A stretch of DNA of 38,898 nt, taken from an uncultured Methanomicrobiales archaeon. GTDB lineage: Archaea; Halobacteriota; Methanomicrobia; Methanomicrobiales; Methanospirillaceae. The stretch spans positions 1 to 38,898 of the forward strand of contig CAIKOD010000087.1 of assembly GCA_903828975.1 (NCBI GenBank), given 5' to 3'. Positions 4,845 to 38,898 of the stretch are shown piece by piece. The notes below the pieces were generated by a model that did not search any database, had not been told where the DNA came from, and saw only the letters and a program-made list of their open reading frames with translations. Numbering within the stretch: position 1 is the stretch's first letter; every line of letters starts with the position of its first letter. Made by a program: the position numbers and the translations under genes.

Positions 4845-6111
4845 TTATCCGATTGAAGCGGAGTCCGGGTAGTCAGGATTATCTATATATTCAACAAAAA
4901 GCCCCACGGGCCGCGGGTCGAGCTTAATCGCGATCCGTCCCTCCTCACCCGCATTTACCAATTTCCCGTTATCGTCATGGAGCTCTACTATCCATCCGGG
5001 TGACGGTTTACCCATTGATCCGAATTTTGGTTCCATGCAGGGGAACATGCCAATACAACAGGCTGTTTCAGTCTGCCCGTATCCTTCATAGATGGGAAGT
5101 CCTGTTCCCTCCTTCCAGACCCTGATCACCTCAGGGTTTAAGGGTTCTCCCGCACTGCAGCAGTGCCGAAGTGCAGAGAGGTCAAACCTGCCAAGATCTG
5201 CAAGGATCAGCATCCGGTAGATCGTCGGTGGACAACAGAATGTTGTGACCTCATATTTCTCCAGAAGCGGGAGCAGCTCAGTTGCAGCGAATTTTCCGGT
5301 AAAATGGTACACGAAAATACAGGCCCCTTTGATCCATTGCCCGAATATCTTGCCCCATGCACATTTTGCCCACCCCGTGTCGGCAAGGGTAAAATGAAGG
5401 TCATTGTGATACAGGTCCTGCCAGAACCGGGCAGTAACGATGTGCCCGAGCGGGTAACTATGGTCATGGAGGACCATTTTCGGCTCTCCTGTAGTTCCCG
5501 ATGTGAAATAAATCAGGAGCGGGTCTGTACGCCGTGTACGCTTCATTTCAGGCATACTCACCTCGTGGTGGGAGACCGGTGCAGGATAGAGGAGTTCATA
5601 TGGGTAACCTGCCCATCCATCCAGTTCTCCATCCAGAAGAAACCTTGCAGTAAGTGTCGGGCACTGGTCACAAATTTCTTCAATTTTTGCTGAATTTTCG
5701 AGGTTGTAATGACCATCCGGAATTTCCCGATATTTACACGGTATTTGATATCCTTCGGTGTCAGCATGGTCGTACAGGGGCAGATTACTGCACCGAGCTT
5801 GATCAAGTCGATCGAAAAAATCCACCACTCAGGTATTCTCGGTCAGCATAATCAGCACCCGGTCAACCTTGTTGATCCCGTACTTGAGGAGAATGTTGGC
5901 GGCCTGGTTGGATTGATTTTTCAGGTCCTGGAAGGTGTATTTCTTCTCTTCACCCTTCTGGGAAACCCCAGATCATTGCCAGCTTGTTCCGGTCTTTTTA
6001 TGCCCATTCATCGATCGCGTCGAAACCAAAATTATAATGTTCAGGGACTGGTATGGAAAACCGTGCATATTCTTCCGGATAACTGGATAGGTTGTTCCTT
6101 GAATCTGCCAT
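4845..6111 (-). pseudogene. Degenerate AMP-forming acyl-CoA synthetase (paralogue of 781..2646)
   Basis: Starts MADSRNN...PVPEHYNFGFDAIDEWA, then in-frame TAA (+ strand 5998-6000), frameshifts after MIW, MLT and VITT, and loss of the C-terminal ~100+ aa; longest surviving ORF is 4845..5828. Confidence 0.8.
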
Positions 6112-6240
6112 GAGTATCTCATTAAAATATGTGTTTTTCGACTTTTAAATGATCTTTTCCTTCACGATGGAACCCCTTTTTTTGAGGACATAAAGGTTCT
6201 CCATTAGTATTATGATGCAAAAGCAAGCATATACTAATCA

Positions 6241-6795
6241 ATGGACGATAAGCAGTACGCTTCATTAAAAATCGAGAATATCGTTGCTTCAGGGGCAATT
6301 GCAGATTCCATTGACCTTGCAGAGATCTCTAAAAAAATTGAGAACTGCGAACTCAATACAAAGCGGTTCCCCGGAGCAGTTTTTCGGATCGAAAACCCGA
6401 AGATCGCCTCGCTGATATTTTCATCCGGCAAAGTAGTACTCACCGGTATCCGGGACAAACAGGCACTACATGATGGTCTGGCACTGATAATCAAGTCCAT
6501 GAAGGAGGCCGGAGTTAAGACCTATGATGAGCCCCGGGTGGCGATTACGAATATTGTCTGTTCGTATGATATCGGGAAATATATCAACCTCAATAAAGTC
6601 GTCATCACTTTGAACCTCGAGAATATTGAATACGAACCTGAACAGTTCCCAGGACTTGTCTACCGGATTAAGGACCCGAAAATTGTTGCCTTACTTTTCT
6701 CATCAGGAAAGATCATCCTGACTGGGGGGAAAAACCTCGAGGACATCAAGCGCGGCCTCGATTTCCTCGAGCAGAAACTCGGCAGTATCATGTAG
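6241..6795 (+). CDS. tbp: TATA-box-binding protein
   Basis: 184 aa with two imperfect repeats: IENIVASGAI...FPGAVFRIENPKIASLIFSSGKVVLTG and ITNIVCSYDI...FPGLVYRIKDPKIVALLFSSGKIILTG. Confidence 0.95.
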   Translation: MDDKQYASLKIENIVASGAIADSIDLAEISKKIENCELNTKRFPGAVFRIENPKIASLIFSSGKVVLTGIRDKQALHDGLALIIKSMKEAGVKTYDEPRVAITNIVCSYDIGKYINLNKVVITLNLENIEYEPEQFPGLVYRIKDPKIVALLFSSGKIILTGGKNLEDIKRGLDFLEQKLGSIM

Positions 6796-6879: not shown

Positions 6880-7143
6880 GGCTTTGTTGAAACCCTGCGT
6901 GTTAAAAAGAGGAAGGAAAAATATGTAGACGAGAGGGGGTTTCACAACTCCCTGTTCCACCTCCAACCAGGTATCCTTCGTTCAGGGTTCAACTGAAGGA
7001 CTCCTGAAAAGTTCTGATATTTTACAACCACTCCTTATCCCAAAAGGGGTCGCCAAAGAGGCGGGACGGAGCCCCGGGAGCGTAGGTAAATTTGGGAATG
7101 GCCTAATCCCCAAGATAAGATTTGAGAGCATGTCAACAGAGCC
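6880..7143 (+). mobile_element. MITE-like element, copy 1 (264 bp)
   Basis: Left end GGCTTTGTTGAAA, right end TGTCAACAGAGCC (imperfect TIR); flanked by CTGATATG (6872-6879) and CTGATCTG (7144-7151), 7/8 match; internal similarity to copies 2 and 3. Confidence 0.75.
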
Positions 7144-33629: not shown

Positions 33630-33992
33630 ATGCAAAAATACATTCAGGAAATCAATGATAAAGCCAGACCAGAACGGTGGCAGTCTGTGGTCGCACTGGA
33701 AAAGATGGGGAGGCCTGCGGTGGAGTACCTTGTGCTTGCACTGAAGGATGAAGATAAATGGGTCCGATATGCGGCAGCTGATGCTCTGGGGAACATCGGT
33801 GACCAGTGTTGTTTTGACCATCTTATCGGTTCATTACAGGATAACGACCAGGACGTAAGATTTGTCACTGCGGAAGCTCTCGGAAAACTGGGGGATCCGA
33901 AGGCCTGCAGTGCGTTGGATACCACATGCAACCAGGATAACGGATATGTTAAAATTGCAGCTGAAGAGGCCCTGATAAAGTTAAACCGCTGA
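33630..33992 (+). CDS. HEAT-repeat (PBS lyase-like) protein
   Basis: DEDKWVRYAAADALGNIGDQCCFDHLIGSLQDNDQDVRFVTAEALGKLGDPKACSAL; start MQKYIQEINDK at 33630. Confidence 0.75.
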   Translation: MQKYIQEINDKARPERWQSVVALEKMGRPAVEYLVLALKDEDKWVRYAAADALGNIGDQCCFDHLIGSLQDNDQDVRFVTAEALGKLGDPKACSALDTTCNQDNGYVKIAAEEALIKLNR

Positions 33993-34243
33993 CATCCGGG
34001 CTTTGTAACCTGCAGAATGCATCCTCTCTTTTATTGAAACTGCTGCAACGATACCATAGTAGGTTCTAAATAATTCCGGGTTATAGATGAACACAGGATA
34101 TCCTCCTGCAAAAGGCATTTTTTATCAATGAAAAAACTGATTATTCCCGACTCGCAGAAAAAAAACTATTCCTCCGGTTTAATTAACAGGGCCATGAAGG
34201 AAAATTTCAGAGGATATTCCAAAATAGCATTAAGGGTTCTACC

Positions 34244-34489
34244 GGCTTTGTTGAAATCCGCTCAATCTATCTTGCACATTAGGTTATTCCAAAATTTAGT
34301 CACGCTCCCCCTGTCACACTCCCGTTAAGATATTCGTGGGCAGGGTTCAATTTGGGCATTCAAAGAAAAATTTCATAGATTTGGATATCATATCCTATCC
34401 CAACCGGCGGAGCCCCCGGGGGTGAAACCCCCTCCTGTCTGAGCAGTTCTGTTAACTATTTTTATTCTGCAAAGAATTTCTACAGTGCC
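34244..34489 (+). mobile_element. MITE-like element, copy 2 (246 bp)
   Basis: Left end GGCTTTGTTGAAA, right end TTTCTACAGTGCC; perfect 8-bp direct repeat GTTCTACC at 34236-34243 and 34490-34497. Confidence 0.85.
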
Positions 34490-34674
34490 GTTCTACCATC
34501 ATGTGAGATAAAAATCTCCCGTTTTCACGTACCATAACCGGGATAATAAGGATGCAGCACTACCTGAATTAAAAAGGGCGACTCAATAATGTCTTTATGG
34601 ATTGGTCCCGTTCGTGGTGCAACTACTAAAATTGAAAATGTTTGCGGGGTGGAATAAAAATTTATCCATCATAA

Positions 34675-37600
34675 TTATTTTGCGTTTTTATTCCGGTCAT
34701 GAACCCTTTGGACAAGTACATAGCCGTTTTTTTCACCATCAGGGCCCCTTATTTCAGATACCGTTGCTTCTACTGTCAGCCGGCCTTCATTGGTGATCAA
34801 CGAGTACCGGAGGAGAGAATTGCTTTCTTTTTCTGTATCTGTAATAAAATCAAGAACAATTTTCCGGTATTCTGGTGCGATAATGCTGGAGATATGTCGG
34901 TCAATTACTTCTATTTCCCCCATATTCCCGATTAGTGCAGCCATGGCAGTATTTAACCTATATATTTTACAGGTACTGTCAAGCACTATAACAAGGTCAG
35001 TCGAAGCGTTCATTGCATTAAAAAGGACGGCCTGTTCGTTATTAATATTTTGAAGCCTCTCTGTTTCTTTTACAAGGTTATCATGGAGGACCCGCATCCC
35101 TTCCATCTGCGACCTGGCAATATCACCTGATACTCCATGGGCTTTATGGAGGGACTCTTCAAACATTTTCAGTGCACTAATATCACGGATTGTCATAATA
35201 GCCCCATTACGTATACCGTCTTTATCGAGTAACGGAGATGCCTTTTCAAGAGACCCGCTCTCCTGTGAGCCCTTCTTTGCGAGGAGCCCTGATTCATGGA
35301 TAAGGTTTGTCCCGAGAATTGTTACACCGGGATAGTGATTACGGACTTCATCCACGGGTAGATCGAGGAGGTCTATCAGGAGCGGGATCTCCCGGTTTTC
35401 CTGGCGTAACACCTCTGCATACCGGTCGGTACCGATGATGATTTCCCTCTTCACTCCGGTGAAACCTTCAATAGCCCTGTTCCAGGCGATTACGTGGTGC
35501 GATTGGTCAATGACAAATGTCGGGTCAGGGAGAAACTCGATAATGTCAGAAAGCTCCCGGCCAGTCGCGTTCAGTTTACTCCGGAGTTCTTTCAGTTCTG
35601 TTATATTTACAAATGAAAGGATAATATAGAGGGGTTTTCCTGAAGCGTCAGTGATGCACCGGACTGTCAGTTCGGTAATAGTAACCTTCCCTTCACGGTC
35701 TTTCAGCCGGACCTCTCCTTTCCAGCCATTCTTTTTAAAACTCTCTACCCTCACATTTTGTAATTCCGCAAGTATTGAAGCATCCCCGTGAGTAAAATGG
35801 TCAATCGGGTGATAAATTACTTCATCCAGGGAACGGTACCCAAGAATGTCAACAAATGCCCGGTTCGCGTAAATTACATTTCCGGCAAGATCAAGTATTA
35901 CAATGGCGTTCGTTGCTGCGGAAACTGCACTCTCCTTCAGGAATAATTCATGTTCCGCCCGTATCCGGGGGGAAATATCCGCAAACATGGCCATCATGCA
36001 GATCGGATTTCCGGATGCATCCCTGACCAAGCTCGCTGAGAGCTGGGCATCCAGCCGGGACCCATCCCTTCTTCTTGGATGAATTTCTCCAATCCAGCCA
36101 CCTTTCTTTCTTAAGGCCTTTTTCACTTCCTCAACGATTTTTAATTCAAGGGGGTCCTCGTGGGCAAAAAGTTCCATGGGTTGACCGATGACCTCTTCAG
36201 GTGACGTGTAACCAAACATCCTCATGAATGAACGGTTCGCAAATGTCACGTTACCATCCATTCCTGCAATAACAATACCGTTTACTGAGGACTCAATTGC
36301 ATATCCCTTGATGAGAAGGTCCCTCTCATCCTGTTTCTGCCGGGTGATATCCCTCGAAATGCTGGATACCCCGATGATATGCCCCTCGTCGTTCCGGATC
36401 GGTGAGAGGGTAAGTGCAATATTGATTAATGTTCCATCTTTTTTCCTCCAGACGTCCTCATGACTATTAATATGCTCCCCCTGACGTATCTGCTCAAGGA
36501 CCCGGAAGAAATATTCCTGGTTTTCAGCCGGGATTAGCAGTGAGACCGGTTTCCCGGTAATCTCCCCTGACGTATACCCATACATCTTTTCTGCACCGTT
36601 ATTCCAGGATATAATTGACCCATCAGGAGATTTGCCTATAATTGCCTCTTCAGACGATTCTACGATGGACTTATGGATAGCCCGGATTTTTTCCACATCC
36701 ATGCGGTCGGTAATGTCTTCGTAGGTGATAAACTGCCTCGCGCCTGATATAGAAACTGCCCGGATTTCGATCTCCCGTAACGATCCCTCTTTTGATTTTA
36801 TTACAGTGCGGATCTGTGTCACCTCCCCGGCAGCCGATGTATATAACCAGCGCATACGGGTCGCTTCCATCTCATTACGAAGGTTTTCATCCGGGTAGGC
36901 ACGGACCTGCCATTCCCTGATTGTCGGGAGTTCCTCTTTCGTATACCCGAATACCTCGGTAAACCGGTCATTAAGGTAGGTAATTACCCCTGAACTTTCA
37001 ACAATACTTATCGGGAAGGGAGAATAATCGACAATTTTTCTGAATTGGTCTTCATTTTCCCGGAGGGTTTCTTCAGCCAGCTGTTTCTGTAGCACAATTG
37101 ATGATTCCCGGATATAGGTCTCAAAAATATCTACATTGTGAGGTGTAACTCCTCCTTTCATCAGGAGGGCAACCCGGCCGAGAAGCTTTTCTTTTCTCGC
37201 AAGTCCGATCACGTAAATTCCGGAAATTTTTAACTTTTCTTCTAGTACTGAACATACTTCGGGAGGATATGAACGGTTAATAGCCTCGTACAGCGATGCA
37301 TCAATCTTTACCAGCTTCCTGGAAAGCAGGTTTGACATTGGGCGGTCAGACATCGGATAGGTCATCCCTACCGGGTCACGGCCCACAAGGGCAATAATCT
37401 GTTCTCTTGCCTGCTCATCAAGAACAACACGTACAAGAAACTGCCCGGTAATCTCGTCATAGGAATGTACGACGACCACCGAGTCAGGGACCAGCTCTAA
37501 TGCACCTTCTCCTATCCGGTTGAAAATGTCATCTTTCCCGGCGATATCAACTAACTCGGTGGTCCTCCTCGAGAGCATTTCAAGGCCCCTGATATACTCT

Positions 37601-38559
37601 ACGGCCTTTTCTTCAGCTATGATCCTGTCAGTGATATCACGGCCGACCGACTGGTACTCAGTGACATGACCCTGATCGTCGAAAATAGCCCGATCACTCC
37701 ATTGCTGCCAGCGGATGGTACCATCTGTCATGATAATGCGGTGATTGATACTCTGAACGGGGTGCTCAGGGGTCAATGAAGCAAAGTGGGCCCTGACTAG
37801 GGGACGGTCTTTTTCGGGTACATCCGGAATGAACACGTTATTCAGGAGATCCTCCCTTTTTTTCCCAAAGTAACGCAGATATGCTTCATTTACGAAAATG
37901 TGTTTACCACCAGGGAGAAAACGGGAGATGAACTCGGTCTGGTCTTCGACGATATTCCTGTACCGGGCCTCACTGACCTTGAGCTGGCGCTCGTATTCCT
38001 TTGTATCAGTCACGTTTTCGAGGATAATGGTGACACCCCGGGCCCCCTCTTCAAAAACGGTAGGGACCAGTTTCACCCTGTAATACAGTTCCGCAGCGGC
38101 ACTTTCACCCGTTACAGGACGTTTATACCGGATATTTAGCGAAACCTCAGTTTTTTCAGGGGATTCCTTAACTGCATCAGCAAGGGGCAGCTCCCTGACA
38201 AACGGGATCGGGATATCCGGGAGTGGTGTGCCGATAATGGCTTCCCGGGTCATGGTAAAGGCTTGAAGAAAATTTTCATTGACCTGCATGATCCGGAGGT
38301 CTGAGTCTGTGATGATTACCAGGTCTGATGACAAGGAGAGCATTGCAGAAAGAGGCACCCTTTGCGAGAGGAAATAAATTTTTGCTGTCCCGTAACTCCG
38401 CATTTCGACCTGGCCGGAGACAAGGAGGAGGTCAAGGTACTTCGCGACAGAGTTCCGGTTCATCTTCAGGTTGTGGGAGATATCCGAGATGCTCAGGCCT
38501 TTCGGCTTGAACTTAAGGTGGTTCTTGATTCTCGCTATCTTCTCCTGCTCAAGGATCAT
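34675..38559 (-). CDS. Multi-PAS sensory regulator with N-terminal HTH and no recognisable kinase domain
   Basis: 1294 aa; N-terminal HTH-like KIARIKNHLKFKPKGLSISDISHNLKMNRNSVAKYLDLLLVSGQVEMR; about eight PAS-like repeats plus a GAF-like region; C-terminus ends shortly after the last PAS. Confidence 0.8.
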   Translation of the reverse strand: MILEQEKIARIKNHLKFKPKGLSISDISHNLKMNRNSVAKYLDLLLVSGQVEMRSYGTAKIYFLSQRVPLSAMLSLSSDLVIITDSDLRIMQVNENFLQAFTMTREAIIGTPLPDIPIPFVRELPLADAVKESPEKTEVSLNIRYKRPVTGESAAAELYYRVKLVPTVFEEGARGVTIILENVTDTKEYERQLKVSEARYRNIVEDQTEFISRFLPGGKHIFVNEAYLRYFGKKREDLLNNVFIPDVPEKDRPLVRAHFASLTPEHPVQSINHRIIMTDGTIRWQQWSDRAIFDDQGHVTEYQSVGRDITDRIIAEEKAVEYIRGLEMLSRRTTELVDIAGKDDIFNRIGEGALELVPDSVVVVHSYDEITGQFLVRVVLDEQAREQIIALVGRDPVGMTYPMSDRPMSNLLSRKLVKIDASLYEAINRSYPPEVCSVLEEKLKISGIYVIGLARKEKLLGRVALLMKGGVTPHNVDIFETYIRESSIVLQKQLAEETLRENEDQFRKIVDYSPFPISIVESSGVITYLNDRFTEVFGYTKEELPTIREWQVRAYPDENLRNEMEATRMRWLYTSAAGEVTQIRTVIKSKEGSLREIEIRAVSISGARQFITYEDITDRMDVEKIRAIHKSIVESSEEAIIGKSPDGSIISWNNGAEKMYGYTSGEITGKPVSLLIPAENQEYFFRVLEQIRQGEHINSHEDVWRKKDGTLINIALTLSPIRNDEGHIIGVSSISRDITRQKQDERDLLIKGYAIESSVNGIVIAGMDGNVTFANRSFMRMFGYTSPEEVIGQPMELFAHEDPLELKIVEEVKKALRKKGGWIGEIHPRRRDGSRLDAQLSASLVRDASGNPICMMAMFADISPRIRAEHELFLKESAVSAATNAIVILDLAGNVIYANRAFVDILGYRSLDEVIYHPIDHFTHGDASILAELQNVRVESFKKNGWKGEVRLKDREGKVTITELTVRCITDASGKPLYIILSFVNITELKELRSKLNATGRELSDIIEFLPDPTFVIDQSHHVIAWNRAIEGFTGVKREIIIGTDRYAEVLRQENREIPLLIDLLDLPVDEVRNHYPGVTILGTNLIHESGLLAKKGSQESGSLEKASPLLDKDGIRNGAIMTIRDISALKMFEESLHKAHGVSGDIARSQMEGMRVLHDNLVKETERLQNINNEQAVLFNAMNASTDLVIVLDSTCKIYRLNTAMAALIGNMGEIEVIDRHISSIIAPEYRKIVLDFITDTEKESNSLLRYSLITNEGRLTVEATVSEIRGPDGEKNGYVLVQRVHDRNKNAK

Positions 38560-38636: not shown

Positions 38637-38898
38637 GGCTTTGTTGAAACCCTGCGGGGTCATAAAAAAGAAGAGGGAAATACGAATACGGGAGGGAGTT
38701 TCACCCCCTCCCTGCCTCACCCCCATTAAGATATTCTTCGGGCAGGGTTTCCCGAAAGCACATTAAATTCAGGGTATTTTTAGATAGTCTCAATCCCAAC
38801 CGGGGTCGCCACAGCGGCGGGGCGGAGCCCCGGGAGCGTGGGTTAATTTCGGAACAACCCGAAATCGCTAGAAATTATCAGAGCATTTCTACAGAGCC
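38637..38898 (+). mobile_element. MITE-like element, copy 3 (262 bp within window)
   Basis: Left end GGCTTTGTTGAAA, right end TTTCTACAGAGCC at the last base of the window; internal GGGGTCGCC...GGCGGAGCCCCGGGAGCG shared with copy 1 and CCCATTAAGATATTC..GGGCAGGGTT shared with copy 2. Confidence 0.75.

Follow-up and report, generated by a model that had tools for sequence, protein, structure and literature searches.

The 246-bp element at positions 34244-34489 is a genuine MITE copy, and its partner is most likely, judging from the sequences of its ends and of the elements that end in the same way, a transposase of IS5 type rather than of IS6 type. Positions refer to the window, i.e. the whole 38,898-nucleotide stretch of archaeal DNA that was analysed. 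The element is short and transposase-free, has terminal inverted repeats and a target duplication, and belongs to many dispersed copies. As a MITE it is an element of an ordinary kind, its flipped middle and an internal core shared with other repeats aside.

Boundaries and setting of the window copy

The following features were delimited around and within the element:

34244..34489, plus strand: MITE copy, 246 bp (boundaries, and family match to at least 38 scored genome copies)
34236..34243, no strand: left copy of the 8-bp target duplication, GTTCTACC, identical to 34490-34497
34490..34497, no strand: right copy of the 8-bp target duplication, GTTCTACC, identical to 34236-34243
34244..34258, plus strand: left terminal inverted repeat, GGCTTTGTTGAAATC (196 genome matches versus 1 for the control)
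34475..34489, minus strand: right terminal inverted repeat, GGCACTGTAGAAATT in minus-strand reading (right-end type, 99 versus 2 for the control)
34310..34416, minus strand: 107-bp internal segment, flipped relative to the family, with deletion of a second hairpin of about 18 bp (alignment score on flipping)
34417..34439, plus strand: conserved hairpin CGGGGGTGAAACCCCCTCCTGTC, end of the conserved core (core alignment)

The first letters of the element, from 34244, are GGCTTTGTTGAAATCC and the last, up to 34489, are GAATTTCTACAGTGCC. The coordinates proposed in a preliminary description, made from the letters of the window, were exact, including the ends and the bracketing 8-mers. The same description had spoken of imperfect terminal inverted repeats, and the two ends indeed pair at 12 of 16 positions. 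It had also reported a perfect 8-bp duplication: GTTCTACC stands on both sides and, over 38,636 window positions, is the single identical 8-mer pair found at exactly that spacing. No open reading frame of at least 80 amino acids is listed within 34244-34489, in agreement with the earlier statement that no transposase is encoded. The element sits in an intergenic gap, the whole of which is free of listed frames of that size. On its left is a HEAT-repeat gene, which ends at 33992, and on its right, on the minus strand, a PAS-domain gene (34675-38559); both gene names are taken from the translations of the open reading frames.

Two other features of the window were recorded. Positions 4845-6113 hold a degraded tandem paralogue of the intact acyl-CoA synthetase-like gene at 781-2646, with an interrupted frame and 72-78% DNA identity to it in blocks. 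Positions 524-683, where no open reading frame of at least 80 amino acids is listed, hold two 49-nt direct repeats that are 90% identical, start 111 nt apart and contain CGCCGTTGGCCAGGCTTGGCTACCCTCGC.

Copies of the family in the same genome

The genome of origin is a 2.58-Mb draft of 186 contigs, an assembly of the sort that repeats break. The ends of the element were searched in it and compared with control patterns. The left end GGCTTTGTTGAAAYC, allowing at most 2 mismatches, gave 196 matches versus 1 for the reversed control, the right-end type GGCTCTGTAGAAATC gave 99 versus 2, and the core word ATTGAACCCTGCC, allowing at most 1 mismatch, gave 95 versus 1. The ends of 34244-34489 are therefore not a product of chance, the left-end matches being far above the reversed control. 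A search with the whole element returned 87 matching pieces from 40 scored places out of 198 candidates; since just these 40 places were scored, the copy number of at least 38 is a lower bound. The further copies that the preliminary description had proposed to look for beyond the window thus exist in this genome, and also in G002, a genome of the same genus.

The usual copy length is 258-268 bp, and the copies are mostly 70-90% alike, so that the family is old. Exact 8-bp duplications flank four further copies (ATTATTTC, CATAATGG, GGGCTTTC and GAAAATCC) and a fifth one (AGAATATG). Exact duplications were counted in 4 of the 21 scored copies, most others having decayed ends and no visible duplication. 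Because of this decay, the duplication claim draws jointly on the exact copies, the relatives and the autonomous elements.

Two additional copies lie in the window itself, neither of which had been noted before:

6880..7143, minus strand: second window copy in canonical arrangement, 264 bp, with duplication CTGATATG/CTGATCTG (7 of 8 positions)
38637..38898, minus strand: third window copy in canonical arrangement, 262 bp, terminating exactly at the contig end

The copy at 6880-7143 is located directly downstream of a TATA-binding-protein-like gene (6241-6795). An end of the same type (L073:1504-1521) is likewise located directly downstream of a TATA-binding-protein-like gene in G006, a genome from another genus.

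The sequence CATTTTCATGGGAAA was considered as a second type of end and was rejected, its copies having the appearance of long forms of 352-358 bp. In these long forms the IS5-type end is apparently separated from the core by an additional module of about 100 bp. They occur in the same genome at L156, L157, L158, L159, L160 and L172, and their extra module contains GAAAATGCC and GGCATTTTC as an inverted pair.

An inverted internal segment

The middle of the window copy, 34310-34416, is reversed relative to nearly all other copies, a feature absent from the preliminary description: in the other copies, the ends and the middle match the window copy on opposite strands. Among the distinct middles of the fetched loci, 50 were opposite to their ends, 9 had no nearby end and 3 were in the same orientation, namely the window copy, L009:1241 and L157. 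On inspection, L009:1241 was mis-assigned and is part of a neighbouring element, and L157 represents a separate, different rearrangement.

Aligned with a canonical copy, the window copy scored 103.5 as it stands and 175 with 34310-34416 flipped. The window copy is therefore a rearranged member of the family and not its type. The breakpoints fall in CGCTCCC and GGGGG-type stretches, with the further loss of the hairpin of about 18 bp. The 107-bp segment would have flipped between short GC-rich inverted stretches (CTCCC/GGGAG), and one hairpin would have been lost, either before or after the insertion of the copy. Recombination or template switching at the short inverted stretches may have been the cause. 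The inversion is a curiosity. L157:99-450 carries a different internal inversion, one of whose breakpoints lies in the first hairpin, as in the window copy; this hairpin may be a hot spot of rearrangement.

Relatives and empty sites

Two copies of the family in G002 are flanked by the duplications GTTATTTG and GAAAAATT. The only copy that one exact-pattern scan of named genomes retrieved belongs to isolate Prado136, a Methanoregulaceae archaeon, where it occupies the locus of the G002 copy L061. As G002 shares its genus with the genome of the window, the window itself most likely derives from a member of the Methanoregulaceae.

The preliminary description had suggested a search for empty sites, which succeeded in part. 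In G050 and G136, from another genus of the same order, an element of about 200 bp with ends GGCTTTGTTGAAACCCTCTC and GGCCCTGTTGAAATGC is inserted in CTTATTTC; the orthologous place in G117, G089, G096 and others of that genus holds a single CTTATTTC and is empty. One family copy of G002 is missing from G001 and G003, where the orthologous gaps are correspondingly labelled as shorter. The window copy yielded no empty site of its own, as its flanks have no orthologous counterpart in 25 relatives.

Transposase type of the autonomous partner

The genome of the window contains the relic of an IS5-type transposase, on contig C103 (locus L052), in frame-shifted form. After the relic comes an end of the MITE type (TCTACAGAGCA / GGTTTTCTACAGAGCA). 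Among the NCBIfam models, NF033579 for the IS5 family matches the relic best, its separate fragments remaining below the curated cut-off of the model. A search with its C-terminal part across 199 genomes of the order found relatives in 46. This frame-shifted copy was the only one recovered; no intact autonomous partner was found in the 186-contig draft.

Autonomous elements were located with the IS5-type transposase P0001 in other Methanomicrobiales genera and delimited by exact 8-bp duplications together with inverted ends:

L091: autonomous IS, 1007 bp, duplication GAATAATC, ends GGCTCTGTAGAAATGC
L092: autonomous IS, 1008 bp, duplication TCAATAAG, ends GGCTCTGTTGAAACCC, interrupted frame
L095: autonomous IS, 1007 bp, duplication AAATTTAT, ends GGCTTCGTTGAAACCC, 309-amino-acid frame

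All three have GGCTYTGTWGAAA-type ends like the MITE, the agreement being limited to the outer 15-18 bp. The MITE has its ends in common with transposase-encoding elements and makes duplications of the same length of 8 bp, as expected for an IS5 derivative. The GGCTYTGTWGAAAYC-type ends of the MITE very probably belong to a kind of IS5-family element that is about 1007 bp long and, like the ISH1 subgroup, generates 8-bp duplications. L091, L092 and L095 are tentatively placed in that subgroup by size and duplication length. The MITE-like nature proposed in the preliminary description is borne out by the many genome copies, the exact duplications elsewhere, the autonomous elements with the same ends and the empty sites for a same-ended element in another genus.

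The cautious assignment of the ends to the IS6 family was not supported. IS6/IS26 elements likewise start with GG, carry G as their seventh base and generate duplications of 8 bp (PMC6807381). However, no IS6 transposase domain (PF13610) was found in the genome at an E-value of 0.001, and the ends of the same type with 8-bp duplications belong to elements that carry an IS5-type transposase, which leaves an IS6 origin very unlikely. In archaea, GGCTTTGTTGAAA together with an 8-bp duplication does not suffice to diagnose IS6 when no transposase accompanies it.

A parent from the IS1595 family, which is multicopy in the same genome and also makes 8-bp duplications, appears just as improbable. The genome matches PF12762 at 11 places, many of them at contig ends, and an archaeal MITE linked to IS1595 and flanked by 8-bp duplications is listed for Haloquadratum walsbyi (PMC3852290). 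Against such a parent, the sole complete IS1595 copy (L042) has no flanking end like GGCTTTGTTGAA at up to 2 mismatches, and the matches to GGCTTTGTTGAA at L044 and L045 do not form an end pair. As a separate observation, IS1595-family transposase pieces (L043-L051) lie at many contig ends, so that the multicopy IS1595 has probably collapsed in the assembly.

With an IS5-type partner, the transposase would have recognised both ends of the MITE and inserted it at a staggered 8-bp cut in GTTCTACC, between the HEAT-repeat and PAS-domain genes. We infer that the window copy was moved by this type of enzyme in trans, through the usual DDE chemistry.

An internal core shared across the order

The canonical copies contain a stretch of about 150 bp that also occurs in repeats scattered through other genera and families of the order. 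This core consists of two parts, the first made of ACGCTCC and GC-rich hairpins and the second of GGGGGTGGGRCNGGGAGGGGG and a hairpin. Core repeats in other genera and families, with the two parts in unchanged order and no IS5-type ends detected, were located at the following positions:

L064: 1375-1548
L069: 1374-1536 and 2702-2862
L148: 318-475
L150: 224-389
L155: 225-387

G010, G053 and G058 have both parts, with order and orientation preserved and a distance of about 110-130 bp between them, and the same pattern scan detected no IS5-type ends around them. The loci of G016 carry the first part only. An alignment of 20 core sequences has as invariant or nearly invariant positions ACGCTC, the GGG of the first hairpin, TATC and GGGGTGGG.C.GGGAGGGG. 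Four G-runs (GGGGGTGGGRCNGGGAGGGGG) mark the 3' part of the core, with a C-run hairpin after them.

The repeat could in principle be a structured RNA or a REP-like intergenic element in which the transposon ends are incidental. The core is strongly structured, with a fold energy of -86.5 kcal/mol versus -44.2 (sd 4.8) kcal/mol for column shuffles, and it occurs in other families where IS5 ends were not detected. Yet compensatory changes were seen in 0 of 18 pairs of the consensus hairpins and the canonical copies had no match at the gathering score in Rfam, so that a functional RNA is not supported; given the lack of compensatory changes, the conserved hairpins are not evidence for one. The window copy 34244-34489 folds no better than shuffles (z -0.15). 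Its best Rfam match, NRON, was rejected as due to chance (score 15.8 versus a cut-off of 50). For the copies of this genus, moreover, the ends, duplications and empty sites demonstrate transposition. We therefore regard an RNA or REP-like repeat as improbable, and retain the MITE reading for this genus.

How the core came to lie within the MITE is addressed more tentatively. Possibly, although we would not put it at even chances, an old core of about 150 bp with its own means of spreading or its own function was captured and amplified by the IS5-type MITE in this genus. For the core outside the genus, eroded MITEs, a different mobile element and a functional repeat are all candidate readings. 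The core is the only part of the element that could exceed a known kind; should it move or act alone, it would stand as a repeat without explanation in a major methanogen order.

Comparison with known systems

Taken as a MITE, the element connects the short elements scattered through the genomes of one methanogen genus with a partner family and with a duplication of 8 bp. We found nothing relevant on such a family in the literature on Methanoregula or other Methanomicrobiales. The catalogue of MITEs from 30 archaeal genomes (Kamoun et al. 2013, PMC3852290) describes similar elements that are small, free of open reading frames and have IS-like ends, with 2-34 copies per genome and less than 20 nt of similarity to the partner IS. 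Its IS5-linked MITEs, from M. acetivorans, M. barkeri and M. burtonii, have a DR of 0 or 3 and a length of 140-252 bp; unlike the window family, none in the catalogue combines an IS5 link with an 8-bp DR.

IS6/IS26 elements resemble the MITE in their GGnnnTG-type ends and 8-bp duplication (PMC6807381) and differ in that no IS6 transposase was found in its genome and that the autonomous elements with matching ends are of IS5 type. The ISH1 subgroup of the IS5 family, to which ISTth7 of Thermus belongs (IS5/ISH1, 900-1150 bp, DR 8; PMC6352166), resembles the family studied here in the 8-bp duplication and, for the autonomous elements, in a size of about 1 kb and a DDE transposase. The window element differs from it in having no transposase, and has about 15-18 terminal bases in common with the autonomous elements that were found.
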